The position numbers and the translations under genes were made by a program. The notes under the pieces are model-generated. The model saw nothing but the letters and a program-made list of their open reading frames with translations. It did no database searches and was not told where the DNA came from. Shown piece after piece: positions 11,007 to 59,093 of a stretch of 59,762 bases of DNA (the first letter of the stretch is position 1; every line of letters starts with the position of its first letter). The stretch covers positions 1-59,762 of IMG/VR virus record IMGVR_UViG_3300037549_000080; one strand, written 5' to 3'. Source of the stretch: a virus.

Positions 11007-11864
11007 TCAACTGAGGAACCATTCCAGCATCGGCCGCTGGTCATTAACAAACTGCCGGCCAGCTTCCACAAGGTAGGCAAGGCTAGATGGGTCGGCGCCA
11101 TCCAGCTTAACCGGGGCGGCGAAGGTCGGCTGTATCACCCGGTAGTAATCACCGAGAAATTGTTTCATCTGATATTGAACTTCTTCCTGACCGGTGGCGA
11201 ATTGCAGCCCGATGGTCAGCGCCAGGTCTTGCACCCACTGCGGCCAGCCCGGAGCCGGAACATCGTCCTGCCCGCACCCGATGGTCAACAGCTTCACCTG
11301 CTCGCCCGGCCACAGCTTGCACGCATCAGCGTACGCGCACACCGATGGGTCGTTGGCAATGTTGCCGCCGTCCCATAGGTACTTGTTCCCGAGCTTGAAC
11401 GCCGGGAAGTAACGCTGCGCCGCGGACGTCGCCCGGCCGACCTGCCATAGCGGCGTGGCTCCGTCTAACAGCAGGTTCCCGGTGTCGTACGACTTGAACA
11501 TGAACGGCACTTGGTCGGTGCGGTTGAGCGCCGGAACCAGCAGCTTGGTCTTGCAATCCTTGAGCGCCTTGCAATCAAACCGCCGCTGAAGCACAGCCTC
11601 AATCGGGCCCGCCGGGTACAGCGGCCAGTGACGGTACCATGCCGGGTTAAATATGGCCGGGCCGTCCTGCGTGAAAAAACTGGTGTACGGACCCGGAAGC
11701 GCAGCAGACACCAGCCCGGCGAGAATCCCGCCGATGCTGGTGCCTGCAATTAAATCCACATGGTCAGCCAGCTTGCCGGCCGCCATGATCTGCAGCTCGT
11801 CCAAAGCAGCGGCCGCCGGCAATCCTTTCATGCCGCCGCCCGCAATGCAGAGAACGCGCATCAT
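11007..11864 (-). CDS. Patatin-like phospholipase
   Basis: A 285-aa protein from ATG 11864, just after the outer-membrane gene stop (a second ATG follows at 11861). The patatin features are all present: oxyanion-hole GGGMKG (9-14), nucleophile elbow GTSIG with Ser43, and the dyad Asp in WDGGNIAND near residue 167. Patatin enzymes are lipid acyl hydrolases using a Ser-Asp dyad. No signal peptide is seen. It is the last gene of the late operon, after the holin-like and outer-membrane-type genes, so a membrane-attacking role in lysis is inferred. A defence or anti-defence role cannot be excluded. Confidence 0.85.
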   Translation of the reverse strand: MMRVLCIAGGGMKGLPAAAALDELQIMAAGKLADHVDLIAGTSIGGILAGLVSAALPGPYTSFFTQDGPAIFNPAWYRHWPLYPAGPIEAVLQRRFDCKALKDCKTKLLVPALNRTDQVPFMFKSYDTGNLLLDGATPLWQVGRATSAAQRYFPAFKLGNKYLWDGGNIANDPSVCAYADACKLWPGEQVKLLTIGCGQDDVPAPGWPQWVQDLALTIGLQFATGQEEVQYQMKQFLGDYYRVIQPTFAAPVKLDGADPSSLAYLVEAGRQFVNDQRPMLEWFLS

Positions 11865-11868
11865 AACC

Positions 11869-12432
11869 TTAGAAGCGGGCGCCGACGCCAACCAACACAA
11901 TGCCGCCGGAGTTGAAAGAGCCATGTTCTTCAAACGGCAGACCCCAGCCGACGTAACTGAACGTGTTCGGTGTCATAACCTTCACGGCTTTGAGGTCACC
12001 TTCCACAATCCAACTTGAATGTTGCACGTTGCCGACATAATTATTGAAGTCAGCGCCGGCAAGGATGTTGGCTTCAATCTTGAAGTCGCCTTTTTGAATA
12101 AGGTTGTAGCCGCCGCCCAACATAATCTTGCCGAACGCGGAACCGACACCTTCAAACTCACCAACGAACTGGGCATTCCAGTTGCCGAAGGTTTTTTCAA
12201 CGGTCAGCCGGTCAGCCGAGGATTTGCCGGTGATTTGCGCCAAGCCGGTTTCGACGGAAAGCGTCGAGTTGGTCCATGAGTAGGTTGGATCATAGTTGAT
12301 GGACGTGCTCCAAGAATACGCCTGCCCAAAGAAATTTACGAGCGGGTTGGCGTTGGTAGCTGTCAGGGTCTGCGCCTGCGCCGTCAGCGACAGCGTGGCG
12401 ATGGTTAGGATTGCTGCGATGTATTTTTTCAT
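11869..12432 (-). CDS. Putative outer-membrane beta-barrel protein with signal peptide
   Basis: A 187-aa protein. Residues 1-20 (MKKYIAAILTIATLSLTAQA) are a clear Sec signal with an AQA cleavage site. The rest has alternating strands rich in Gly/Asn/aromatics (FGKIMLGGGYNLIQKGDFKI) and ends VLVGVGARF, with the C-terminal Phe typical of Gram-negative outer-membrane barrels. Phage-encoded barrels such as the Lom type are known. Here it lies between the holin-like genes and the patatin-like gene, so roles in lysis or superinfection exclusion are both possible. Confidence 0.7.
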   Translation of the reverse strand: MKKYIAAILTIATLSLTAQAQTLTATNANPLVNFFGQAYSWSTSINYDPTYSWTNSTLSVETGLAQITGKSSADRLTVEKTFGNWNAQFVGEFEGVGSAFGKIMLGGGYNLIQKGDFKIEANILAGADFNNYVGNVQHSSWIVEGDLKAVKVMTPNTFSYVGWGLPFEEHGSFNSGGIVLVGVGARF

Positions 12433-38163: not shown

Positions 38164-39636
38164 TCACAATCCTAAGTCAGACGGGCTCAGCCTGTCAACA
38201 GATGAAAATGGCGAGGCGGTCACCTGCCCGGCCCGCAGCTGGCTCGCACTGGTGAAGCCGGTGCTGGCCACCGTCAGCACGTTGATGCTACCGCTCAGCG
38301 TGTCCACGATGTCATCATGCGCGTACTCGTCATCATCGTCGCTGAAGTTCTCAAGCTCGGTGAAAAACTCGTCATTCCATTTTCCTTCCACGACGAATAT
38401 CTTGCCGCCTTCCGCCTGTGACATAGCCGGCTTGGCTCGCTCAAATTTGTTTTTCGTCGGCTTGTTCGTGCGCACCGGGTACCCGGCGAGCGCTGTGATA
38501 TACGCATCCACTTCAAACTCGCCGGCTGAGCCAGGGTCACCTTCCAGCACCTGCTCCACCCGCGTGCCGTCCTGTGACGCGGTGTTGAGGATAAGCTTCT
38601 TGACGCCCAGCGGCCGCTCGCGCACCGATTGCATGTCCATCACATAAAAGTTTCCGTCCGGGCAGCGGCGCACCTTGAGGCCGCGTGTCCAGTCGGGGTC
38701 GGGGTTCTCCGGGCTGGGCACCGTGGCCGCCCGGTCCCAGTAGCGCAGCGTCCGGCCTTTCATCGGCACCATGCTGAATGGCACCACCGTGAACCAGCCC
38801 CGCTTGAAGCACATGCCGGCCGCAGCGCGAATCTTCCAGTTGCCGCCCAGCAGCCGTTCCCGGTCAACCTGCGGCAGCGCCATCATGCTGGCGAGGTATG
38901 CCGGGTCGCGTTCCATCCCGATTTTGTTGTCCGTGATTTTGGCCGGGATGAACGTAACGCTCTTGGGTCGCTGGTCGCTGCCGTACTGCGCCCGCAACTC
39001 ATTCGGGGTATCTGCCCACACCAGCTTATTGTTCACCCGGATAAACCACCGCAGCACGCCGCTCCGCTCCGGGATTGCGTACCCGCTGTCCGGGTCAATC
39101 CACCAGTCAATGAACCGGCGCACCCAGCTGTCCGGGTCCGGGTTGCACGTGGCTCGGATGTAACCGCTGATGCCGGTGGCGGAACGGTTGCGGGACATCA
39201 TGTAGAAAAACATGCGCTCAGAAAAATGCGTCAATTCATCCCAGCAAATCAGCGGCACCTGACTGCCTTGCCAGTTCAGAACATCCTTGTCGTACATCAT
39301 GTGCGCGAAGCGAATCGTCGCACCGCTCGGGAAGCGCCAGCTGGAATTGTGTTCGCTGCCCCGGCCGCCGGCCAGCGGGTACAGTTCGAGTGAGCTGTCC
39401 CACAAGCCGCCCTCATTGTGGATGTCAACGTACGTCTTGCGGAATATCACCGCGCTGAAGTTCGGTATCTGGATGTGCCGCAGCGGCTCCATCAGCAGCG
39501 CAAAGGTCTTGCCGCCGAACGCAGCGCCACCATAAATCAGGATGTCGGCCGGGCAGCTGAGCGCACCCGTCTGCGGCCCCGGCTGGGCGGCTATCTTCAC
39601 CTGCTGCTCTAGGGCTGGTTGTGTGGCTGTGTCCAT
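38164..39636 (-). CDS. terL: Terminase large subunit
   Basis: A 490-aa packaging motor. Walker A YGGAAFGGKT lies at 35-44, the Walker B-like LICWDELTHF near residue 130, and the C-terminal nuclease domain has RYWDRAATVP, RTNKPTKNKFERAKPA and a DDDDEYAHDDIVDTL acidic end characteristic of the RNase H-like Mg-binding site. It cuts and translocates DNA into the prohead through the portal. The small-subunit candidate lies upstream, and portal, protease and capsid genes downstream. Confidence 0.93.
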   Translation of the reverse strand: MDTATQPALEQQVKIAAQPGPQTGALSCPADILIYGGAAFGGKTFALLMEPLRHIQIPNFSAVIFRKTYVDIHNEGGLWDSSLELYPLAGGRGSEHNSSWRFPSGATIRFAHMMYDKDVLNWQGSQVPLICWDELTHFSERMFFYMMSRNRSATGISGYIRATCNPDPDSWVRRFIDWWIDPDSGYAIPERSGVLRWFIRVNNKLVWADTPNELRAQYGSDQRPKSVTFIPAKITDNKIGMERDPAYLASMMALPQVDRERLLGGNWKIRAAAGMCFKRGWFTVVPFSMVPMKGRTLRYWDRAATVPSPENPDPDWTRGLKVRRCPDGNFYVMDMQSVRERPLGVKKLILNTASQDGTRVEQVLEGDPGSAGEFEVDAYITALAGYPVRTNKPTKNKFERAKPAMSQAEGGKIFVVEGKWNDEFFTELENFSDDDDEYAHDDIVDTLSGSINVLTVASTGFTSASQLRAGQVTASPFSSVDRLSPSDLGL

Positions 39637-41000: not shown

Positions 41001-41288
41001 CTAGCTCATTTCCTGCTTCACCGGCGGCACCTCTGCGGCATTGGCGGCGGCGGGCGCGTTGGCTTTCGCCGTGGCCGTGGTGGCTTCCACCGCGTCCAGT
41101 GCATCCTGCGCGTGGTAGCCGTCACCGAGGTTGACGAAGTGCTGGGTCACGCCGCCCGGCACCACTGTGGCCACCTGACCATTGCAGCTGGTGCAGTTCG
41201 GGTTGATGTCGTGCAGGGTGCCGACTATGCCGTTGGGATAAACCACCGGGTCATTGTTCTTGGCCTCGCGGCCGTTCTTGTAGTGCAT
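41001..41288 (-). CDS. Small conserved hypothetical protein with CxxC
   Basis: A 95-aa protein: MHYKNGREAKNNDPVVYPNG, then GTLHDINPNCTSCNGQVATV and DGYHAQDALDAVEA. It begins one base after the ParB-like gene stop. The Tyr-Lys-Asn-Gly-Arg opening and SH3-like beta pattern with a CxxC recall small phage proteins of unknown role. The last third is Ala-rich. Its tight link to the cassette suggests co-expression with the modification-like genes. Confidence 0.6.
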   Translation of the reverse strand: MHYKNGREAKNNDPVVYPNGIVGTLHDINPNCTSCNGQVATVVPGGVTQHFVNLGDGYHAQDALDAVEATTATAKANAPAAANAAEVPPVKQEMS

Positions 41289-41289
41289 G

Positions 41290-41955
41290 CTATTTGCCTT
41301 TCTTTTTTGCTGGTTTCTTTTGCTTCACCGGGACGGGCTCGGCTACCTCTGGTTCCGGCGGCTTGGCCACCGGCACGTAGAAGCTTCTCCGGGCCACTTC
41401 GTCACGGTCAACTTGGAACACGTTACCGCAGCCCGGACAGCTCATGTCCACGAGGTTGCGGGTGGCGCTGCCTATCTGGGCGACGCCGGCCTGCATCTGC
41501 TGTCCCAGTGCGGCAATCTTTTCGTTGGTCGGCACCGGGGCCGGCGTGCTGACCTTGTTCAGAAATTCGGCAATGTTGAAGTCAGGCATCATGGCCTGCA
41601 CTTCGGCGGGCGTCTGCCACTCACGGATCTCCGCCATGAGCTTGTCCGTGTCCCATGTGGCCGCCTCGCTGCTCTTGTTGTCAATGACTCGGTACTCCTT
41701 GGCCTTGGCTTCGTCCATCAGGCTGATGACGCAGGGCAATGTGGCCAGCCCCAGCTGCTTCGCGGCCATGTATCGCGTGTGCCCGGCGATGATGGTCTTC
41801 TCCGTGTCGAGGATGATGGGCTGCGTGAAGCCAAACCTTTCGATCGACGCCTTCACCACCTGCACGGCAGCCTCGTTGTTCCGCGGATTGCGCCAGTACG
41901 GTATTATCTCCGTGATAGGCACGTTTATGATTTCAAGCTGCGGCTTTTCGCTCAT
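41290..41955 (-). CDS. ParB-like protein with C-terminal zinc-ribbon segment
   Basis: A 221-aa protein. Residues about 8-95 are a ParB/sulfiredoxin-fold N domain: IPYWRNPRNNEAAVQVVKAS, FGFTQPIILD, IIAGHTRYMAAKQLG (56-70), LATLPCVI and KAKEYRVIDNKSSEAATWD. This type lacks a partition partner here. Residues about 172-190 contain CPGCGNVFQVDRDE, half a zinc ribbon, and the tail is basic. It overlaps the IbrB-like gene by 23 bases. Phage ParB-like proteins of this sort often accompany methyltransferases or PP-loop enzymes; enzymatic roles (nuclease or nucleotide hydrolysis) are proposed for the fold. Confidence 0.8.
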   Translation of the reverse strand: MSEKPQLEIINVPITEIIPYWRNPRNNEAAVQVVKASIERFGFTQPIILDTEKTIIAGHTRYMAAKQLGLATLPCVISLMDEAKAKEYRVIDNKSSEAATWDTDKLMAEIREWQTPAEVQAMMPDFNIAEFLNKVSTPAPVPTNEKIAALGQQMQAGVAQIGSATRNLVDMSCPGCGNVFQVDRDEVARRSFYVPVAKPPEPEVAEPVPVKQKKPAKKKGK

Positions 41956-42604
41956 GTGATTTTTGTATTTTGATTTGGTTTTCGGTGACCCAGGACGGGC
42001 TAAACTTTGCATCCTTGAACAGCTTGGCGAAGCCGGTGATGTGCTTCAGCCGCAGCAACTCGTCCGGTTCCAGCCCCAGCTCATTGCATATCTGGTTGTC
42101 GCCCCAGCCCAGCTTGAGCAGTTCGAACACCATGCTGCCCATGCCGGCCACGCTGTGCTTACCTCGGGCCCGGTTGTGCCGGATGGTGCTGGCCATGCGG
42201 TCGCCAATCGGCTTGTCAATGACCACGATGGGCAGCAGCCCGTTGCGGGCGGCTTTGATGTCCGGGAAATTGCGCATCGTCGTGTACCGATGGAAACCAT
42301 CAACGATGATGTACTTGCCCAGCTTCTCGTCCCAGATGGTCACCACCGGCTGCGTGTAGCCGTCATGGCTGATGCTGGTGTGCAGCAGGCGCATTTCATT
42401 TGAGGCCACGCTGTTCGGATTGTAATTGTTGCTTTGCACCATTTCGATGGGCACCCAGCGCACGTGGTCAATGGGGTCTTTCAGATCGGATATGTCATGC
42501 AGGTACTCCCTCAGCATGCCTATAAACATCTGCCGGCGGGCCGGGGTGTCCAAGCCGGCCATCAGCTTGGTGATTATATTTTTTACTTCGGCGGGCAGTT
42601 TCAT
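41933..42604 (-). CDS. ibrB: IbrB-like ParB/sulfiredoxin-fold protein
   Basis: A 223-aa protein from ATG 42604, overlapping the IbrA-like stop (ATGA). It has the ParB pattern VQSNNYNPNSVASNEMRLLH, then SISHDGYTQPVV and YIIVDGFHRYTTM (99-110), HNRARGKHSV and a helix-turn-helix-like C-terminal part (GWGDNQICNELGLEPDELLR). IbrB is the known genetic partner of the IbrA PP-loop protein in E. coli accessory elements, where the pair affects eib gene expression. The same two-gene order is seen here. Confidence 0.8.
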   Translation of the reverse strand: MKLPAEVKNIITKLMAGLDTPARRQMFIGMLREYLHDISDLKDPIDHVRWVPIEMVQSNNYNPNSVASNEMRLLHTSISHDGYTQPVVTIWDEKLGKYIIVDGFHRYTTMRNFPDIKAARNGLLPIVVIDKPIGDRMASTIRHNRARGKHSVAGMGSMVFELLKLGWGDNQICNELGLEPDELLRLKHITGFAKLFKDAKFSPSWVTENQIKIQKSHERKAAA

Positions 42605-43725
42605 TTTCGTAACTCTACCTTTCCTTGCTTGAGCTGTAAATGCAAAGCGTTCTCGATTGAGCAGCACCAGTTGGCCAGCTTCACATGCTCATAGTCGTTG
42701 GTCAGGATGCTGTTGATGTGCAGCCGGAACAGTTTGTCACCCGCCTTGTCCAGCCAGATTTCCTCCATCCATTTGAATTTCTTGGCGAAGCCGTCGCGCC
42801 ATTCCGGGTTGGCGATTAAGTTTTCCAGCAGGTAATCCCGGTACTCCCGCCAGTCTTTGAACATGTGGGGCAGGTCATGGATGAAATAATCGTCTTTGTT
42901 CATCTTGCCGGCCATGTCTATGCCTTGGATGCGCTGCGTCAGGCGCTGATACGTTTCCGGCTCTATCTCCTGCAAATGGAACAGGCTCTTGACGGCGGTT
43001 TCATGATGCACGTTGCTGACCCGCATCTTGCTCGGCGGCACGCCGTACCGATAATAATGGTCATAGAGTTCGTTGTACGGCCAGCCGTTGTCATTGATGG
43101 CCTTCCACACGTCGCCCAGCGCCCAGTCATAAATCGGGTACATGGTGAAATGCAGCTGCGCCTTTTTGTTGAAGCATTTCCCCCAGGTCGCGCCCTTGTA
43201 CGTTTCATGCATCGTCAGCCCTTGGAACCGGCTCGGGCTTTCCTCGCACCGCACGCCGGCCAGATAACAGGTCTTCAGCCCGGCAAAGTCTTTGGTCAGG
43301 ATGGCTTCGAACAGTTCAAAGAACCGGTTCGTGCCGTAGGTGTTCTCCTTGATGGCGTTCGGCTCTTTGGGCCGCAGCCAGACATCTTCCTTGCCCGGCT
43401 CCCAGCAGTACAGCTGCGTGTCAATCTGGCTGGTCGCGTTGACCATCTGAATCGGTATCTGGTACCACAGCGGTTCAACCTCCGGGTTTTCCATGACGAG
43501 GCGCACGTAGTTCACCGTGGCCTGCCACTCGGCCTCTTGGTCCACGAACATCACCTTCAGCGGCAGCCGCCCTTTCTCACGGGCCACCAGCAGCGCAAGG
43601 TTCAAGATGATGGTGCTGTCTTTGCCGCCGCTGAAGCCGACCAGCACATTCGGGAATTCATCGAAGAGCCAGCGCATCCGTTTGAGCGCGGCCTCCCAGA
43701 CGTTATCTTTGATGTAGAACTTCAC
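42601..43725 (-). CDS. ibrA: IbrA-like phosphoadenosine phosphosulfate reductase-family PP-loop protein
   Basis: A 374-aa protein whose GTG at 43725 overlaps the preceding stop (GTGA). The PP-loop SGGKDS is at residues 32-37 and KVMFVDQEAEWQATVNYVRL follows. GVRCEESPSRFQGL and MYPIYDWALGDVWKAINDNG carry the reductase-like second half. The C-terminal 100 residues fit a DUF3440-like extension. PAPS-reductase-family enzymes adenylate or reduce sulfate-type substrates. IbrA and DndC-type relatives act in regulation or DNA phosphorothioation, but the key partners of the Dnd system are absent here. Confidence 0.85.
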   Translation of the reverse strand: MKFYIKDNVWEAALKRMRWLFDEFPNVLVGFSGGKDSTIILNLALLVAREKGRLPLKVMFVDQEAEWQATVNYVRLVMENPEVEPLWYQIPIQMVNATSQIDTQLYCWEPGKEDVWLRPKEPNAIKENTYGTNRFFELFEAILTKDFAGLKTCYLAGVRCEESPSRFQGLTMHETYKGATWGKCFNKKAQLHFTMYPIYDWALGDVWKAINDNGWPYNELYDHYYRYGVPPSKMRVSNVHHETAVKSLFHLQEIEPETYQRLTQRIQGIDMAGKMNKDDYFIHDLPHMFKDWREYRDYLLENLIANPEWRDGFAKKFKWMEEIWLDKAGDKLFRLHINSILTNDYEHVKLANWCCSIENALHLQLKQGKVELRK

Positions 43726-44888
43726 AGCGCTGGTTTTATATCGCCTTTGAACGTGAAGCCCAGCGCATTCAGCCGGTTGAAGAATTCCATTTCTGGGATG
43801 ATGCCTTCCGGGCAATACACACCCCGGTCAGTGATGAAATTTTCCAGCAGCATTTCTGTGATGATGCAGGCGGGAAAGGCGGTGTCCACGTTGCACCCGT
43901 ATTCTTCCCAGCCGGGCAGCGGCGGCACGATGCATTCCATGTGGCCCACCACCGGCAGCTTGTTGACCTCGCCCCGCACCGTCACCCACAGGTTTTCAGA
44001 TTCCTTGTACCCGGCCGGCGTTGGTATGCGCTTGCTCATGGCCGTCAGGAAGTCGCACGGCTGCACCTTGGTTGGCCCGGCATCCGTCACCACGATCACG
44101 GGCTGGTCGTGCTGGAAACCCATTTTAATCAGAGAGTCAATCACGGCCTTGCTGTGCGCCGGGAACCCGGCGAAGAATTTCACGTTCTTCAAACCCTTGT
44201 CTTTGAAATAGTGGTGGAATGAATAAACCTCCGAGTGCGGCACCAGATACACGACCTGCTCACCCAGCAGTTCAAATTCCCGGCATTTAGATTCGCTCAG
44301 CGGCGGCACCGTCACCAGCTCATTGTTCTCCATCACCAGCGCCGGCAGGCTCAGCTCCAACGTGACCACGTACAGGAAGAACGGCGGCACAAAGTCTTTC
44401 ATGTTGCTGTCCCATGCGAAACCAGCCTCAGCGCTCTCCACGGAATGCATCTGCCCGGCCATGTGCTTCATCATCACGCTGCCGATGCCCGGCACGCTGC
44501 CGCAACCCATGATAGCTGTCAGCCCGGCCGCCTTCACTTCCTGATGCCGGATTAGCCGGCGGGCGGTGCCCGGTATGTCCGAACCCAGGTCCACGTAGTG
44601 AGTGTTGAAATCAATGCACGCCTGAAGCACTCCGTCATTGTAAAAGTCGCTGGCACAGTTCAGCACGATGCGCGGCTGGAACCGTTCAAGGATGTCCCGC
44701 AGCATGTACGTGTGGCGGTGGTCGCAGAACTGGAACGGTATCTTGCCGCCGGCATGGTCTATTTCCTTCTGCACGTTGTCCCGGTAGATGTCGGCCACCA
44801 CGATGCTGTGGCCGCGCTGTGACAGGAACCGGGTGGCGATGATGCCTTGCTGCCCGTCTGCACCGAGGATGAGGATGTCAGTTTTCAT
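43722..44888 (-). CDS. Saccharopine dehydrogenase/opine-type NAD(P)-dependent oxidoreductase
   Basis: A 388-aa protein with Rossmann motif ILGADGQQG (7-15). DIYRDNVQKEIDHA marks the second strand, IVLNCASDFYNDGVLQACID and YVDLGSDIPGTARRLI follow, and then GCGSVPGIGSVMMKHMAG. This is the saccharopine reductase/homospermidine-synthase-like pattern. Such enzymes join an amine and a carbonyl compound by reductive condensation. The gene shares ATGA overlaps with a DNA methyltransferase before it and IbrA after it, so a nucleic-acid-modification role is inferred rather than lysine metabolism. It is very unusual for a phage. Confidence 0.85.
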   Translation of the reverse strand: MKTDILILGADGQQGIIATRFLSQRGHSIVVADIYRDNVQKEIDHAGGKIPFQFCDHRHTYMLRDILERFQPRIVLNCASDFYNDGVLQACIDFNTHYVDLGSDIPGTARRLIRHQEVKAAGLTAIMGCGSVPGIGSVMMKHMAGQMHSVESAEAGFAWDSNMKDFVPPFFLYVVTLELSLPALVMENNELVTVPPLSESKCREFELLGEQVVYLVPHSEVYSFHHYFKDKGLKNVKFFAGFPAHSKAVIDSLIKMGFQHDQPVIVVTDAGPTKVQPCDFLTAMSKRIPTPAGYKESENLWVTVRGEVNKLPVVGHMECIVPPLPGWEEYGCNVDTAFPACIITEMLLENFITDRGVYCPEGIIPEMEFFNRLNALGFTFKGDIKPAL

Positions 44889-45433
44889 TGGTTGGATTTA
44901 TCAATCACTTTTTTTAGTTCCGCGTACCGGGCACCGTTCATTTCTCCGCCTATGAACCTTGCCCCGCACTTGATGATTATTTCTGCTGTCACGCCCAGCC
45001 CGGCAAACGGGTCAAACACCAGCCCCGGCTTCAGGGCCGCAATGGCCGCCCGGATGCAGCCTTCTTCATCCAGCCCCAGCGTGGGCGTCAGATAATCGGT
45101 GTTGAAGGACAGCACCACCATCGGCTTGCCGTTGCATTGCAACGCCAGCGCGTGACCGGTGTACCGGTGGCCGCAATACTTTCCTATCTCCACCACCTTG
45201 TCCCAGCCACGGGCCGAGAACTCCACCAGCATCGGCTTGTCGCGGTGCGCTGAAGCAAATAGCTGGTTGAGCGCGTCCTTCATTGTTTCTTTTGACGCCC
45301 GGCCGGTTTTTACCATGGCCGACTTTTGGAAAAGCTTCATGATGCCTTCGTTCCAAGGCGGGTCGGTGTACATCAGGTCATAGGCCGGGAACGATGGCCA
45401 GTCTCCCACGGAACGGTTATAGGCTTGGTTCAT
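44885..45433 (-). CDS. DNA adenine/cytosine-N4 methyltransferase (DPPW type)
   Basis: A 182-aa methyltransferase. The catalytic DPPW is at residues 24-27 (LMYTDPPWNEG), and the SAM-binding FDPFAGLGVT with ...GEMNGARYAEL lies near 140-175. Catalytic motif first and FxGxG last is the beta-class permuted order of N6-adenine and N4-cytosine enzymes. It is short, with little room for a target-recognition domain. No restriction enzyme accompanies it. Overlaps on both sides tie it to the cassette. Confidence 0.8.
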   Translation of the reverse strand: MNQAYNRSVGDWPSFPAYDLMYTDPPWNEGIMKLFQKSAMVKTGRASKETMKDALNQLFASAHRDKPMLVEFSARGWDKVVEIGKYCGHRYTGHALALQCNGKPMVVLSFNTDYLTPTLGLDEEGCIRAAIAALKPGLVFDPFAGLGVTAEIIIKCGARFIGGEMNGARYAELKKVIDKSNQ

Positions 45434-45618
45434 GGCAGGATAAATTCACCGTCAAGTTTCTTGGAGTCTTCGGGGAACGGGTTGGAGAATTCCTTGTGCC
45501 AGTCAATGCCCATTACCTCAGCGGCCGGGTCGTACGTGGCGCTGTTGCTAAGGTTCCGGCCGCACTTGGCCGCCATGGTCGTGCAGTCACGGGTCTTGTG
45601 GTTCAGGACGTAAATCAT
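45430..45618 (-). CDS. Hypothetical protein, 62 aa
   Basis: MIYVLNHKTRDCTTMAAKCG then RNLSNSATYDPAAEVMGIDW and ending LDGEFILP. Both ends have ATGA overlaps with neighbours, the strongest evidence for translation. Two cysteines are present, but there is no clear metal site. It lies between the 113-aa protein and the methyltransferase. Function unknown. Confidence 0.6.
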   Translation of the reverse strand: MIYVLNHKTRDCTTMAAKCGRNLSNSATYDPAAEVMGIDWHKEFSNPFPEDSKKLDGEFILP

Positions 45619-45956
45619 AGTCTAGCCCGGTTGAACACCGTGGTTTCATCCGGCGGCCATCCCATCGTCCAATACTGATAGCCGCCATGCTCCAGATAAA
45701 TGTACGCCGTCCGGAAGAACGGTTTAATCACCCCGGCGCTGCGCACGTGGTTGACCATGCGCTCCCATGCGCGTTCATCCGGTGTCTCACTGCGGCGAAG
45801 GTACTGGTGCGGCAGCTGGGCTTTGCCGGCGTGCATCGGCCGGGCCGTGTGCCAGCCGCCGGCGATAACGAAGGCAGCGAACTCTTCCCAAGTAACTGTG
45901 TCGGCGGTGACTTTCTGCTTCTGCTCCGTGACGCTGGGTGTTTTCTCGTAGGCCAT
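45615..45956 (-). CDS. Hypothetical protein, first gene of the cassette
   Basis: A 113-aa protein from ATG 45956 behind the CAAC-type leader AAACAACGACCAACTAAAAC. It reads ADTVTWEEFAAFVIAGGWHT, then YIYLEHGGYQYWTMGWPPDE and TTVFNRARL. I recall similar YWTMG...NR proteins in phages, always without function. It is the first gene after the promoter at 45987-46015 and overlaps the next gene by ATGA. Confidence 0.65.
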   Translation of the reverse strand: MAYEKTPSVTEQKQKVTADTVTWEEFAAFVIAGGWHTARPMHAGKAQLPHQYLRRSETPDERAWERMVNHVRSAGVIKPFFRTAYIYLEHGGYQYWTMGWPPDETTVFNRARL

Positions 45957-46075: not shown

Positions 46076-46135
46076 GGCCGCACCGGGAACAACTCCGGTG
46101 CGGCCGCGTGACGGTAACAAGACCAACACCGTCAC
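46076..46135 (-). terminator. Tandem hairpins after the ligase gene
   Basis: Two strong inverted repeats follow the WGR-ligase stop. One is GTGACGGT with ACCGTCAC (46108-46115 and 46128-46135), and the other is GGCCGCACCGG with CCGGTGCGGCC (46076-46086 and 46095-46105). The second is followed on the minus strand by ATTTATCC only, so termination may need Rho. They precede the cassette promoter and so separate two transcription units. Confidence 0.6.
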
Positions 46136-47217
46136 GAAACTTCTGCCTTGTACTTCAGCTGCCGGGTGATGCATTCCATGGCGTCAACGTCATCGCGTTT
46201 GAACGTCTCGCCCGTCATGCACGGGCTGGGTTGATACAGCACGCCTGTCGCCTTCAGGGCGTACAGGTACTTGATTTCCACGACGTCGCCAACCTTCAGC
46301 GTTTCAATCAGGCCACGCTTTAGCACCGTCACGTTGCCGCAGGACACCCACGCATTGCCGTTGAATAGCTCGCACTCAATGCTCAACGCACCGCCGGGCC
46401 GCAGCGTGCGCACCCGCGCTGAGAGGCTTTTCCAGAACTTGCACTTGAACTGCGTATCGGTGTAGCCCACTTGGAACGCGGCATCACGGCGCTTGAACAC
46501 GATACCCTCTTTGCCGCCGTGCTTCAGGTCGTTAAACATCTTGCGCTTTTCTTCCTTGGTGAACGCCGTGGGCACCACCCGCACCGGCGTGTCGGTCCAC
46601 GGGAACAGGTTGATTGCTTTGGCCAGCCGGTGACTGTACGGTTCAGAGGTTATGTCCTGCCCGTCCAGCCCGGCCCAGCTCGTCAGGTTGTGGACATGGT
46701 AAACGTCACCAATGTGTTCCGCGCTGGCAATGAAGTCCCGTTTGGCCATGATGGCTTGGTCATGCACCGGGCCGGGCGTGGGAACTATCTGCCCCTTTTT
46801 GTTCGCGCTGGTCACCACCATATTTTTCAGCCGCAGCGTCTTGTTCCGGCCGTCCAGCTTTTCCTGTGCGCAATAGGCGTCATCGTTGATGTACTGCTCC
46901 GCATCTTCCTCGCTGATGTCCGTCAGCAGCTGGGGCAACATTTCGGCGTCCACTTCCTTGGCTGTTTCACCCACCGGGGCGGCGGCCGGTTGCTCGTCCA
47001 TCTTGTAACCCTTAGCCACCTTTTCTTTCACTAGGCGGTTGAAGATGTCCTGTGCCTGTGCCCGCGTGACTTCCAGCGGCGTCTTGGTGCCGCAGGTCAG
47101 GGCGCTGCCCCGGCGGCCGTATTGGAAGTTCACCACGTAGCCGTGACCTTTCGGCTCAAGCTGCACGTGGTACTCTTTGTCACTGGTGCCCGACTGGTAT
47201 CTCAATGTCATTTTCAT
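46132..47217 (-). CDS. WGR-domain ATP-dependent DNA ligase-like protein
   Basis: A 361-aa protein. Residues 1-70 form a WGR-like domain (KEYHVQLEPKGHGYVVNFQY then GRRGS, Tyr replacing the usual Trp). Residues 115-260 are a nucleotidyltransferase with the ligase motif I K120-LDGR and motif IV/V-like GKEGIVFKRRDA. The last 80 residues resemble an OB fold (LIETLKVGDVVEIKYLYALK). ATP-dependent ligases seal nicks via a lysyl-AMP. WGR fused to a ligase core is a rare architecture; WGR domains bind nucleic-acid ends in PARPs. Confidence 0.8.
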   Translation of the reverse strand: MKMTLRYQSGTSDKEYHVQLEPKGHGYVVNFQYGRRGSALTCGTKTPLEVTRAQAQDIFNRLVKEKVAKGYKMDEQPAAAPVGETAKEVDAEMLPQLLTDISEEDAEQYINDDAYCAQEKLDGRNKTLRLKNMVVTSANKKGQIVPTPGPVHDQAIMAKRDFIASAEHIGDVYHVHNLTSWAGLDGQDITSEPYSHRLAKAINLFPWTDTPVRVVPTAFTKEEKRKMFNDLKHGGKEGIVFKRRDAAFQVGYTDTQFKCKFWKSLSARVRTLRPGGALSIECELFNGNAWVSCGNVTVLKRGLIETLKVGDVVEIKYLYALKATGVLYQPSPCMTGETFKRDDVDAMECITRQLKYKAEVS

Positions 47218-47970: not shown

Positions 47971-48111
47971 TTAAGCCAGCACCATCGCCATGGCTTCCGG
48001 CGTCCAGTTGTGAGCGTCCGCAGCTTGGTTGGCAGCCCACCGTTCACGCAACTCGGCTTCCAGCGCGGCGGCCGGGCTGGTGAAGTCTAAATCAATTTGG
48101 TCATTTTGCAT
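47971..48111 (-). CDS. Small protein, 46 aa
   Basis: MQNDQIDLDFTSPAAALEAE then LRERWAANQAADAHNWTPEA and MAMVLA-stop. The ATG at 48111 overlaps the end of the SNF2-like helicase gene by 11 bases; ATG 48117 is an alternative, and GGAG lies upstream of both. The dyad promoter A begins just after its stop. The peptide is acidic and helical. No family recognised. Confidence 0.55.
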   Translation of the reverse strand: MQNDQIDLDFTSPAAALEAELRERWAANQAADAHNWTPEAMAMVLA

Positions 48112-50200
48112 TGCCATAAATCTCCGGGAACAGGTCACCCACCTGCCGGCGGTACTTCCTCGCCAGCCGCACCGCCTCCGCCCCTTGCCTCGGCGTCAGC
48201 TGGTTTTGATAGGCTAGGTGGTGGCCATACTTTACATCAAACTTGCCGAACCCTTCAGCGTTAATCGTGCTGGCTCGGTCCGCGTCCATGCCGGCCAGCT
48301 GCTGCATCGCCCGGTGCGCCCGGTCAATCTGGTCACGGGTCAGGCGCAGCGCCAGCTTGTCCGTTTCCTCACGCCGGGCCGCTTTCTTTGCCTCGGCCGG
48401 GCTGGGCGTAAACGTCACGCTCGTCGCCCCGTTGCTTTCCCGGCGCGTCACCGTGGCCGCCGGCGTCACGTTGGTCAGCGCCAGCCGGGCCTCGGCCTCA
48501 AGTTTGAAATCAACCTCGCCGCGCAGCCGCAGCACTTCGTCGGGCAGCCCGTCATTGAGAATATCAATCCGGCCAATCTTTTCGTTCACGCCCTTGCACA
48601 CCGCCTCTTCAATCGTGCCGGCCGCGAAAAATATCCGCTGGATGCTCTTGGCACCCTTGGCTCGCCACACCCGGCCCAGCGCCTGCTTCATGTCCTGCCC
48701 GCTCCACGTTGGAAAGATGATGCTCGCCCGCATGCGGCTCGTCGGGCTGCCGTGCAAACTGACACCCACGCCGCCCGCCTGTATGATGGCCAGTATCACA
48801 TGCTGCTGGTCGGCTTGGAAGGCGTCAATGTTGCCCTGCCGCTCCGCCTCAGTCTGCCCGCCTTTGATTAGGCACTTGGTGCCCAGCTTTTCGGACAGGG
48901 CGGCCAGTGTCTCGGTGAAGTTCACAAACACTGCCACGCTCATGCCTTCTTCTATCAAATCTTCAACCATCGCCACCACCGCCGGCACCTTGATTATCTC
49001 CGTCCGCTGCCGGGCGCGTAGCATCTCTGTCAGTATGCAGGCTTGCTTCTTGGCATCTTCCATTTCGCTGGCTGCAATCCGGGCAATCTCTTCGGCCATT
49101 TCTTCGTTCACCCGGTTGATGGCGGCTGCATCGCATTCGTAGCACTCTGCGGTTATTTGAGTTTCCGGGAACTGGTCACCTAGGTCGGCTATCCGTATGC
49201 GGGTACCGTGCAGCGGGAAAATGCTCTTATGAATCTTGGCCAGCGCCTCGCGGCCGCCGGTGAATTCCATCCCCCAGTTGCCCCGGCTGACCCCGTTCCG
49301 CAGCATCCACGGGTAAAACTCATGCTCGCTTTTAATCAGCCCGGCCACCCGCGCCGAAAACTTCATCTGCATCGGGTTGTCAGCCGCCGTCGCGCTCAGG
49401 CCCAGCACCTTGTATCCTTGACGCAGCGCAGCCAGCCCCAGCTGGGCGTTCAACGTCTTGGCGTTTTTCATGCGATGGCACTCGTCAAAAATAATCACTG
49501 TGTCGGCCGGCAGGTGCCACAGGAACTCCTGATACTTTTCCACCGACTTATCCCGCTTATTCCGGGTCTTGTTTTCCAGTGAGCAAACCGGCAGCGTGCC
49601 CCGGCGAAGCATTTCATAGTTCTCGCATCCGGCCAGCTGCACCCCGTAGTGGGCCGCCGCCCGCTTCCAGCTGGTCCGCACCGCCAGCGGGCACACAATG
49701 AACGCCTTCAGCCCCAGCACGGCACAGGCTGCGAGATTCACGTACGTCTTGCCGGTGCCCGTGTCGCTGGCGTCCAGCGCCGAACCGTAGTCCAGCAGCG
49801 CCCGCGCCTGCCGGCGAACACTGGGCACCTGATACGGTATGCACAGCGGTTCAACGGCCGCCAGATTGGCGTGGTACTCCACCGGCAAATCCGCCAGCGC
49901 CCCGGATAGCGCCCGTTCCATTTCAGCGCGCTCCGCATCTTGCTTGGCCTTGCGCTCGGCATCTTTGGCCGCCTGTGCGGCCGGGTCGGTGGATTGCCAC
50001 CAGCACACTTCCCAGACGCCTTGGTACTGGCCGCAGGATATTCCGGCCGCCCGCAGCTGTTCCTTGGCCTCACGCCACACGCCCCAGAAGGCTTGGCTCG
50101 GCGGTGCCTTGCGCAGCATCTTGTCACCCGCCCGGGTCGGCACCAGCTTGGCCTCGCCCCAAGGCAGCAAGGTCTTGATGTCAATGGTGGTCGCTTGCAT
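48101..50200 (-). CDS. SNF2-like superfamily 2 helicase/ATPase
   Basis: A 699-aa protein. A helical N-terminal extension of about 120 residues (HARP-like WREAKEQLRAAGISCGQYQG) precedes the ATPase core. The core has Walker A DTGTGKT (146-152), motif Ia-like FIVCPLAVRTSWKRAA, the DECH box near residue 236 (IIFDECHRMKNAKT), LSATAADNPM and the second lobe VAVFVNFTETLAALSEKLGT. Motif V/VI is IIFPTWSGQDMKQALGRVWR. Such proteins remodel DNA or protein-DNA complexes. Located between dyad promoters B and A; a recombination or fork-repair role is possible. Confidence 0.85.
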   Translation of the reverse strand: MQATTIDIKTLLPWGEAKLVPTRAGDKMLRKAPPSQAFWGVWREAKEQLRAAGISCGQYQGVWEVCWWQSTDPAAQAAKDAERKAKQDAERAEMERALSGALADLPVEYHANLAAVEPLCIPYQVPSVRRQARALLDYGSALDASDTGTGKTYVNLAACAVLGLKAFIVCPLAVRTSWKRAAAHYGVQLAGCENYEMLRRGTLPVCSLENKTRNKRDKSVEKYQEFLWHLPADTVIIFDECHRMKNAKTLNAQLGLAALRQGYKVLGLSATAADNPMQMKFSARVAGLIKSEHEFYPWMLRNGVSRGNWGMEFTGGREALAKIHKSIFPLHGTRIRIADLGDQFPETQITAECYECDAAAINRVNEEMAEEIARIAASEMEDAKKQACILTEMLRARQRTEIIKVPAVVAMVEDLIEEGMSVAVFVNFTETLAALSEKLGTKCLIKGGQTEAERQGNIDAFQADQQHVILAIIQAGGVGVSLHGSPTSRMRASIIFPTWSGQDMKQALGRVWRAKGAKSIQRIFFAAGTIEEAVCKGVNEKIGRIDILNDGLPDEVLRLRGEVDFKLEAEARLALTNVTPAATVTRRESNGATSVTFTPSPAEAKKAARREETDKLALRLTRDQIDRAHRAMQQLAGMDADRASTINAEGFGKFDVKYGHHLAYQNQLTPRQGAEAVRLARKYRRQVGDLFPEIYGNAK

Positions 50201-52719: not shown

Positions 52720-54459
52720 TTACTGGCCGCTGCCCAGCAGCAGCCGGGCGTCACCGGTGCCCAGCTGCACGTTGGTCTTGAAGTATTCGGCGGCTTTCGG
52801 GTCATCCAGTTCCTCCGCCGCTTCCTTGCCCGTGCGCAGCCAGCCCCGGAGCCGGCCGTGTTCCACGTTCAACGCCAGCATGAAATCCTTGTTCAACCGC
52901 AGATGCACGTTGCCATTCAGGAAGGCCCGGCAGTCGAACAGCAGCTTGCCGGCACCCAGCGGCGTCATATAGAAGTTCTCCGTCTTGCCCGGTGTCCAGC
53001 CGGTGCGGCCGGAATAGATCAGTCGCGGTTCGCTGGTGTTGTTCTGGAAACCAAGGTTGCGAGCCAGTGTCCCTAGGTCTTGCAGGAAGCTGGCCGATGA
53101 CTCATTCAGCTCTGAATCCCGCCACGTTGACCGCATGCCGCCGCCCAGCCGGTGCGACACAATCCGGTAATCCAGCGCGTAGTGACTGTTCGGGTCGGCT
53201 TCGTCCCGGCCGCGCCACCGGTTTTCCACCCAGACCCGGTGATTGCTCTTGTACAGCGTCACGTTGGCTTTCTCCACCATCTGCTCGTAGGTTTCCAGCA
53301 GCTGCGAATCAATGTACCGGTTCGCGTTCTTGATTACCCACAGCACCACTTCAAGGATGTTGTCCACGGTGAAGTCCACCTGCACATGCTTTTGAAGCGT
53401 TTCCAGCAGCTGCTTCCGGCTCTTGTTGGTCAGGCGCTCGGTGATGGCGTTCAGGTGGTCGAACAGCTCTTTCCAGTAATCGTTGCGCAGCCCGGCCAGA
53501 CGCAGCTTGAGGCATTGCATGATTTTGTCCGGGAAGATTTCAAACTCACGCAGGAGATCCACATCCAGGTCGGACACCAGCCGGTAGTTCTTATTCACGT
53601 GTTCCATTTCGGCGTTGTACAGCTGCACCAGCGCCTCGGGATAGTTCGGGCCCACCACCAGCGAATGGAACGGCCGCACCCGGCCGCCCTTGGTCTTTTC
53701 CTCACTGAAACCGTGGTCGGGTTTCTCTGGCTCGGCGGCCTTGAACCGGTTGATTAGGTCGGCAAACTGCTCCTTGAAGAATCGGCCAAACGCATCGTCT
53801 TTGTCTCGGTCGTACCGGTCAACCCGGTACCGGATGCTGAGCAAGTCCACCTTGGCGCGGGCCTTGCGGTCTTCCGCATCTTCAAAGTCAAAGCTGCCCA
53901 CCTTGACTGCTTCAACCTCGCGGAATTGCAGCGCGTCAAGGATTTCTATGCTGCCTTCCCAGCGCCGGGGCAGCAGCAGATACACCACCCGGCAGGATGC
54001 CTCCCGGATAATCTTTTCGGCCCATGGGACAAACTGGCTGTAAGGCGGGTTGCAATAGATGATGTCCACCGGCTTCGAGAGCAGGCTTTGTTCTTCAAAC
54101 TTGGTGCCCACCACCAAGACTTCATTCGGCAGTTCGGCGCAAAGGATATGCGACTTTTCAATGGCATGCAAATTGTTCACTCCGCATTTCTCTTTGACGG
54201 CCATTAACACCTTGCCGTTGCCGGCCCCGATGTCCAAGATGCTGCTCTTGCCTTCGCGGTCATCGTCCCGGTGGCCATGCTCGTTCACGTACACCAGCCC
54301 GATGTCCCGGCACAGCGCCATGATGATTTCATTGGTGGTCGGGTACCACTCATGGTCTTCACCCGCCTGCTTCAGTTCCTCGACCAGCTTGCGCGGCGTG
54401 GTGAAGCTGCCGGATGCGGCCGCCGGTTCAAAGGTCAGGCCGGGCTGGGTGGCGGTCAT
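52720..54459 (-). CDS. DUF4942-containing DNA methyltransferase
   Basis: A 579-aa protein. The SAM site is ILDIGAGNGKVLMAVKEKCG (about 73-92) and the catalytic motif is DIIYCNPPYSQF (about 130-141), so it is a gamma- or beta-type amino-methyltransferase with NPPY. The C-terminal 300 residues (TVDNILEVVLWVIKNANRYI, NVTLYKSNHRVWVENRWRGR) correspond to DUF4942, which is common in phage and mobile-element methyltransferases. Likely substrate is adenine N6 in phage DNA, for protection from restriction. It overlaps a small regulator-like gene by ATGA. Confidence 0.85.
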   Translation of the reverse strand: MTATQPGLTFEPAAASGSFTTPRKLVEELKQAGEDHEWYPTTNEIIMALCRDIGLVYVNEHGHRDDDREGKSSILDIGAGNGKVLMAVKEKCGVNNLHAIEKSHILCAELPNEVLVVGTKFEEQSLLSKPVDIIYCNPPYSQFVPWAEKIIREASCRVVYLLLPRRWEGSIEILDALQFREVEAVKVGSFDFEDAEDRKARAKVDLLSIRYRVDRYDRDKDDAFGRFFKEQFADLINRFKAAEPEKPDHGFSEEKTKGGRVRPFHSLVVGPNYPEALVQLYNAEMEHVNKNYRLVSDLDVDLLREFEIFPDKIMQCLKLRLAGLRNDYWKELFDHLNAITERLTNKSRKQLLETLQKHVQVDFTVDNILEVVLWVIKNANRYIDSQLLETYEQMVEKANVTLYKSNHRVWVENRWRGRDEADPNSHYALDYRIVSHRLGGGMRSTWRDSELNESSASFLQDLGTLARNLGFQNNTSEPRLIYSGRTGWTPGKTENFYMTPLGAGKLLFDCRAFLNGNVHLRLNKDFMLALNVEHGRLRGWLRTGKEAAEELDDPKAAEYFKTNVQLGTGDARLLLGSGQ

Positions 54460-58298: not shown

Positions 58299-59093
58299 TT
58301 AGTGCAGATTCAGCCATACAAAGGTGGTGTCGCTTTTTGTCAGGCACCGCACAGCGCGGCCTTTGATTGCGTTATTTAAGGCATGTAAACAATGTGGTGG
58401 CTCTTTCGGGTGAATATAATCGTGCAGGCCGATTGCGATGAGGCCGATGCGGTCAATCCATTGGTGGGAATTTTCAAGGACTTGCCGCTCTGCACCTTCA
58501 ATGTCCATTTTCAAAATATCAATGGTTTCAAGTCTGTATTCTTTAAGCAGGCTGCCGATTGAAACTGTTTTAGTATCTCCGGTTTTTTGTGGCTCAAAGG
58601 CGAATCCAGCATGACAGCCATCCTCTTTTATTCCCATCCTACCCCCTGAATACCACCACAGCGCAGCCTTGACCGGTTTTATGTTTTGGTAGGGTGCGCT
58701 ATTCCTCAAAAGCATTTCATAATTTGACTGCTCCGGTTCAATGGCGATTATCAGCGCATCTGGATACCGGTTCGCGTAATAAACCGATGTGCAGCCGATG
58801 TTAGCTCCGGCGTCAACGATGACCTTCGGCTCGCTGGCCAGATCGCACTTGTATTCCTCGTCAAGCAGGATTTCCTGAACCACCCACATATCGGTCGTTC
58901 CGGCGCGAACACGGACTGGATGTTTAATTCCGCGAACCTTGATGAGGCTGATTTGGCTCTGGGTGATGTTTAGCGCGTGCTTTACTTTCTTAGCCACTAT
59001 GCCTATCGGGATGTGGAGTAAGAATCTAGCAATGCCGCTTAGGCCGATTTGGCGGTAGTAGTGCGGTAATCTGCGTAGTGTTTTGGTAGTCAT
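58299..59093 (-). CDS. FkbM-family methyltransferase
   Basis: A 264-aa protein. The SAM-binding site is VIVDAGANIGCTSVYYANRY (91-110), followed by IIAIEPEQSNYEMLLRN and DILKMDIEGAERQVLENSHQ (about 190-210) and IAIGLHDYIHP. FkbM enzymes O-methylate sugars or small molecules. The N-terminal 55 residues are basic and helical. The gene looks less GC-rich than its neighbours and is a probable recent acquisition, possibly to alter host surface sugars. The start is preceded by AAAATAAATAAATAAT. Confidence 0.88.
   Translation of the reverse strand: MTTKTLRRLPHYYRQIGLSGIARFLLHIPIGIVAKKVKHALNITQSQISLIKVRGIKHPVRVRAGTTDMWVVQEILLDEEYKCDLASEPKVIVDAGANIGCTSVYYANRYPDALIIAIEPEQSNYEMLLRNSAPYQNIKPVKAALWWYSGGRMGIKEDGCHAGFAFEPQKTGDTKTVSIGSLLKEYRLETIDILKMDIEGAERQVLENSHQWIDRIGLIAIGLHDYIHPKEPPHCLHALNNAIKGRAVRCLTKSDTTFVWLNLH

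Follow-up and report, generated by a model that had tools for sequence, protein, structure and literature searches.

Stepwise hypermodification of phage DNA has been demonstrated for the carboxymethylcytosine system CmoA-CmoX-CmoY, near which a ParBc protein is often encoded (PMC12783734). The genes for IbrA and IbrB, frequent in phages and prophages, carry no annotation other than that of gene co-activators, and in the literature searched the two figure solely as possible virulence factors or as co-activators of prophage gene expression. We analysed a locus that encodes such a pair together with a saccharopine-dehydrogenase-type oxidoreductase (SDH) in IMGVR_UViG_3300037549_000080, an IMG/VR record of 59,762 bases that is referred to here, over its entire length, as the window, and that carries tailed-phage genes (TerL, portal-like and head genes, a DnaB-like helicase, SSB and UvrD). 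With moderate confidence, we read this locus as a post-replicative DNA hypermodification system of a tailed phage, in which a PP-loop adenylating core is combined with exchangeable tailoring enzymes and SDH would reductively alkylate an amine.

Like the IbrA/IbrB pair of E. coli and phages, the window pair consists of a PAPS_reductase-like IbrA with a DUF3440 domain beside a ParB-fold IbrB (PAPS_reduct and DUF3440 next to ParB_N); the preliminary description of this DNA had recognised an IbrA-like PP-loop protein and an IbrB-like ParB-fold protein. Unlike the published pair, it is embedded with o146 (a conserved small protein), a second ParB-like protein with a single C-terminal CxxC (ParB-CxxC) and exchangeable modification enzymes. 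With CmoA-CmoX-CmoY the locus would share a stepwise logic, a methyltransferase-family enzyme, an ATP-using enzyme and a ParB neighbour, but its ATP-using enzyme is the PP-loop protein IbrA rather than a ligase and its finishing enzyme a dehydrogenase, and family scans found neither CmoA nor the C5-cytosine methyltransferase-like CmoX among the cassette proteins. The pairing of a PP-loop enzyme with a ParB-superfamily protein acting with DNA recalls DndC/SspD phosphorothioation, from which the cassette differs in lacking the cysteine set. TilS, the tRNA lysidine synthetase, is likewise a PP-loop enzyme and adds an amine to a base carbonyl that it has first adenylated; IbrA shares the PP-loop but is only a distant fold match to it (Foldseek E of 4e-4 for the IbrA model, and E of only 0.009 with the NCBIfam TilS profile).

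Seven genes, all on the − strand, form the chain in the order (5′ to 3′) o146, o62, methyltransferase, SDH, IbrA, IbrB and ParB-CxxC (Table 1). Five of them had been described as overlapping head to tail by ATGA/GTGA, and their positions, strand and junctions, read directly, bear this out; the start of the chain, however, lies two genes further upstream, at o146. Overlaps of 4 nt occur at five of the six junctions, with ATGA at 45618 (o146/o62), 45433 (o62/methyltransferase), 44888 (methyltransferase/SDH) and 42604 (IbrA/IbrB) and GTGA at 43725 (SDH/IbrA), while IbrB and ParB-CxxC overlap by 23 nt (ATG at 41955). Downstream of ParB-CxxC, a 1-nt gap is followed by a gene at 41001-41288 and by a run of genes continuing to TerL (38164-39636). 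GC content at third codon positions (GC3) is 0.72-0.79 in every cassette gene and matches that of the neighbours, so that SDH is, by composition, not a fresh foreign insert. A chance arrangement is excluded, because many loci share the combination of o146, methyltransferase-type enzymes, IbrA, IbrB and ParB.

For this comparison, IbrA relatives were drawn from four IMG/VR scans, GTDB genomes and cultured phages, yielding 164 distinct loci, the window included, after removal of duplicates by IbrA sequence; metagenome loci often end early, open reading frames (ORFs) were called mechanically, and the loci surveyed also served to train the profiles. IbrB adjoins IbrA in 161 of the 164 loci, ParB-CxxC is present in 143 and the o146 profile matches in 107, and the arrangement o146, variable enzymes, IbrA, IbrB, ParB recurs widely in phages as a module, in many cases adjacent to the terminase. 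The variable enzymes occupy a slot, defined as lying between o146 and IbrA or adjoining the IbrA/IbrB pair, for which more than 30 different arrangements were counted. DPPW-type methyltransferases occur in 68 loci, GT-A glycosyltransferases (of the 'glucosyltransferase' phrog_854 kind) in 63, GNATs in 32, a cupin/2-oxoglutarate (2OG)-like family in 18 and GT2 in 14, besides a radical SAM enzyme and class I methyltransferases, which frequently carry a fused o146. Within 3.5 kb of IbrA, 136/164 loci, or 95/110 when only those with at least 3 kb upstream of IbrA are counted, encode one or more enzymes of these kinds (methyl-, glycosyl- or acyl-transferase, oxygenase-like or radical SAM). By comparison, 28 loci with a related TerL and no IbrA, many of them short, gave no o146, GT-A or DPPW matches. 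On a tree of 113 IbrA proteins, changes in slot content numbered 32 for GT-A, 28 for DPPW and 18 for GNAT, versus 37.9, 37.8 and 21.7, respectively, after shuffling. Changes in presence are thus nearly as frequent as in shuffled data, so that slot content hardly follows the IbrA tree, and enzymes are swapped often and freely around a stable core.

Among cultured phages, Microbacterium phage Leaf carries, at the end of its record, two annotated glycosyltransferases, a GT-A-like protein, an acetyltransferase, a methyltransferase with an o146-like stretch and IbrA and, at its start, three ParB-like genes, a DNA-binding protein and a terminase; matches of a Leaf glycosyltransferase to GT-A enzymes in the PDB were weak and mostly over a short stretch. 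Mycobacterium phage Phlyer encodes ParB, IbrA, IbrB and TerL, and an SNF2-type protein directly adjoins IbrA/IbrB in Flavobacterium and Lactobacillus phages. Flavobacterium phages FPSV-F7 and FCL-2 are further cultured carriers of the cassette. The SF2 helicase upstream of the window chain is a possible DNA-access partner of the cassette.

Some further proteins were seen in the surveyed loci. A slot family, x238 (L049:2935-3444 and L051:4312-4821), has an HxD...H pattern and may be an Fe(II)/2OG oxygenase, with no convincing match in Pfam. An SPL-like radical SAM protein is encoded between IbrA/IbrB and ParB at L223:7130-7978 and L215:7382-8221, and an FkbM methyltransferase inside the slot at L177:4312-4998. 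Contigs L101-L103, from Candidatus Prometheoarchaeum metagenome-assembled genomes (Asgard-archaeal bins), carry IbrA-IbrB, next to which a methyltransferase-type gene lies on the other strand.

SDH matches both Sacchrp_dh_NADP (5e-11, 43.4 bits against a gathering score of 25.1) and Sacchrp_dh_C (1.5e-13, 51.9 bits against 31), and its best PDB matches are carboxyspermidine dehydrogenases (CASDH), whose active site is lined by His228, Glu229, Glu230 and Glu188 (PMC10413350). Like members of the carboxy(nor)spermidine dehydrogenase/saccharopine reductase superfamily, it has both domains, the nucleotide-binding fold, a His-x-Glu motif (H218 and E220, the latter the third triad residue) and an equivalent of Glu188 (E178); it is 22-25% identical to cellular relatives and differs from the HEE triad in having S219 in place of the middle Glu, and hence HSE at 218-220. 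The CASDH label was rejected for this reason and for a score of 46.5 bits against the NCBIfam carboxynorspermidine synthase profile, far under its cut-off of 800. Ser at this position also occurs in relatives encoded on plasmids beside aldehyde or alcohol dehydrogenases; relatives from plasmids are ordinary cellular enzymes at 20-25% identity. With the active-site His of CASDH conserved, and two of its three Glu as well, reductive amine chemistry is plausible for SDH, and by its sequence the protein probably functions as an NAD(P)H-dependent imine reductase or amine dehydrogenase. An Asp stands where Ser-Arg would follow strand beta-2, and NADH rather than NADPH is suggested as the cofactor.

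In a profile search of all surveyed loci, SDH was found beside IbrA in 1/164, that of the window, and no homologues were detected by tblastn in 50,697 phage records, by peptide scan of IMG/VR or of GTDB genomes, or by direct search of 10 related virus records. The preliminary description had put forward a multi-step nucleic-acid modification cassette built on an oxidoreductase, IbrA/ParB proteins and a methyltransferase, and had named as damaging the outcome that oxidoreductase homologues are never found near IbrA/ParB genes. Within the data searched that is the outcome, SDH near IbrA being a single case; the four families are not a general set, while the modification cassette as such is backed by the 136 loci in which tailoring enzymes stand near IbrA, with o146 and ParB alongside. 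Its rarity is also what one would expect if SDH were a metabolic passenger (a moron), serving for example host lysine or polyamine metabolism, with the methyltransferase, IbrA, IbrB and ParB alone acting on DNA, and the closest relatives of SDH with good annotation are either polyamine enzymes encoded beside nspC or dehydrogenases with aldehyde dehydrogenases next to them. We regard a passenger role as unlikely, though it is the rival to be taken most seriously, for SDH occupies the exact slot of a tailoring enzyme, overlaps each adjoining gene by 4 nt and has the GC3 of its neighbours. It is by this slot logic that SDH is credible as a tailoring enzyme despite its single occurrence.

IbrA matches PAPS_reduct (3e-15) and DUF3440 (2e-10), and its model (predicted local-distance difference test score, pLDDT, of 91) matches the folds of FAD synthase, CysH and CysD and, more weakly, TilS. 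The PP-loop SGGKDS is invariant in 57 diverse IbrA sequences, that of the window included, while only one cysteine, C105, is widely conserved (91%, against 62% for C151), and the alignment lacks the cysteine set of relatives that transfer sulfur or Fe-S. On these grounds, adenylation rather than sulfur transfer is the chemistry that sequence and model speak for. The same invariant ATP site argues against IbrA/IbrB acting as transcription co-activators of prophage genes amid unrelated enzymatic cargo, a reading that stems from the E. coli IbrAB work and is carried into numerous records and papers by the annotation 'co-activator of prophage gene expression'; given also the strong association of IbrA with modification enzymes, ParB and helicases, we consider it improbable.

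In the methyltransferase, motif IV (DPPW) precedes motif I (DPFAGLG), and this beta order, with a match to N6_N4_Mtase just above the cut-off (2.8e-6), upholds its earlier assignment as a beta-class DNA methyltransferase; weak matches to MboIIA/CcrM were also obtained. IbrB matches ParB_N with a score just under the Pfam cut-off, as well as ParB/Noc, and DGFHR and RHNRARG are invariant in its alignment. ParB-CxxC matches phrog_498 DNA methyltransferase (4.7e-34), corresponding to the ParB part of phage DNA methyltransferases, and PADLOC MTase_II (8e-22); judged by sequence, its domain is of the type fused to DNA methyltransferases, and it is functionally linked to them. The zinc ribbon formerly ascribed to this second ParB-like protein was rejected, a single CxxC pair being invariant among 20 aligned homologues, whereas its ParB_N domain stands. 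The small protein o146, with motifs PHxY ... YWTMG ... NRA, is fused to a class I methyltransferase in some other loci and belongs to no family in Pfam, PHROG or NCBIfam. For a homologue, AlphaFold produced a model of high confidence (pLDDT 92), which had no PDB match at E<=0.001 and one structural match, at 1e-7, to an unnamed viral protein. For o62, no homologue was found in the first 105 IbrA loci.

We infer DNA as the substrate from the methyltransferase class, the ParB-methyltransferase fusions, the helicase neighbours and the proximity of the terminase. RNA and glycans, too, are modified by PP-loop, GNAT, GT and radical-SAM enzymes, and the 182-residue methyltransferase has no space for the usual target-recognition domain, none being visible, as might be expected if the cassette modified RNA (host or phage tRNA) or a virion or cell-surface glycan; given the beta-class DPPW enzymes, ParB domains of a kind seen elsewhere in fusions with DNA methyltransferases, the SNF2-type neighbours and the nearby terminase, such a target seems to us doubtful. 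Phosphorothioate-like (DndC/SspD) sulfur modification of the DNA backbone, to which matches of the IbrA PP-loop domain to DndC profiles (NCBIfam 8e-8, PADLOC 1.3e-9) would point, was rejected as very improbable on the cysteines just described and because Pfam and PADLOC scans recognised no DndD/DndE or SspB/SspC partner among the cassette proteins.

For the DNA hypermodification system that we favour, the following course can be envisaged. In the order of steps we infer, IbrA would use ATP to activate either a small acid or a base carbonyl by adenylation, whereby an amine would become joined to a DNA base, and IbrB, ParB-CxxC and o146 would assemble the enzymes with the DNA, where the ParB folds probably act as NTP-dependent clamps. 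Enzymes of the slot, in this phage the amino-methyltransferase and SDH, would then finish the adduct, SDH reductively condensing an aldehyde or keto acid with the free amine of the adduct into a secondary amine resembling saccharopine or a carboxypolyamine. Alternatively, SDH might make the amine that IbrA attaches, as a free precursor; its position in the slot favours action on the adduct. No precursor-modifying enzymes were seen among the scanned window proteins, some small ORFs lying outside the scan. The gain for the phage would be protection against host nucleases.

Several observations weigh against this proposal, in addition to the single occurrence of SDH, the missing target-recognition domain and the RNA or glycan alternative. 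No tailoring enzyme was seen within 3.5 kb of IbrA in 28 loci, some of them ended by contig ends, and E. coli phage PhiR5_2 carries the IbrA/IbrB pair without tailoring enzymes. Within the surveyed loci, the clustering of slot families around IbrA, with 198 matches within 2.5 kb (727 kb) versus 2 beyond 3.5 kb (554 kb), speaks for the proposal but is partly circular, since these families were picked for being frequent near IbrA.

A bolder version, which we consider unlikely, would make IbrA-IbrB the centre of a widespread and as yet undescribed phage family of DNA base hypermodification systems, in which a lysine- or polyamine-like amine is joined to an adenylated base and completed by interchangeable finishing enzymes, SDH building a saccharopine- or carboxypolyamine-type DNA adduct, a base chemistry not known in nature. 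The 2013 survey of Iyer et al. reportedly predicted lysidine-like pyrimidines in phages. In the partial collection of literature searched, neither the cassette nor a layout of core plus swappable tailoring enzymes was described, and prior prediction of a part of it is possible. The comparison of IbrA loci ties IbrA/IbrB to this layout, which is typical of DNA hypermodification, and a function for the pair, several new DNA base chemistries and groups that evade nucleases could follow from work on cultured phages; the SDH variant, if true, would represent an unusual redox/amine step on DNA.

Table 1. Genes of the cassette and the upstream helicase (window coordinates)
Feature	Position	Strand	Remarks
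o146	45615..45956	-	Head of cassette; conserved unnamed small protein
o62	45430..45618	-	62-residue ORF; ATGA overlap at each end
Beta-class amino-methyltransferase	44885..45433	-	182 residues; Pfam N6_N4_Mtase
SDH, saccharopine-dehydrogenase-superfamily NAD(P)-dependent oxidoreductase	43722..44888	-	388 residues; Sacchrp_dh_NADP + Sacchrp_dh_C
IbrA, PP-loop (SGGKDS) adenylating-type protein + DUF3440	42601..43725	-	PAPS_reduct + DUF3440
IbrB, ParB-fold partner	41933..42604	-	ParB_N; DGFHR and RHNRARG motifs
ParB-CxxC, ParB-like protein with single C-terminal CxxC	41290..41955	-	ParB_N; alternative ATG at 42012 possible
SF2 helicase, upstream	48101..50200	-	Helicase_C/ResIII; same strand; cassette membership uncertain

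Elsewhere on the − strand of the window, the segment between the helicase and o146 (46132-47217) encodes a WGR domain and, after it, a region with a weak match to ATP-dependent DNA ligase, and a 579-residue protein (52723-54459) combines DUF4942 with a weak Dam/MTS-like methyltransferase region. An FkbM-type methyltransferase (58302-59093; Pfam 2.6e-11) and a patatin-like phospholipase (11010-11933; Pfam 3.5e-19) are also encoded on this strand.

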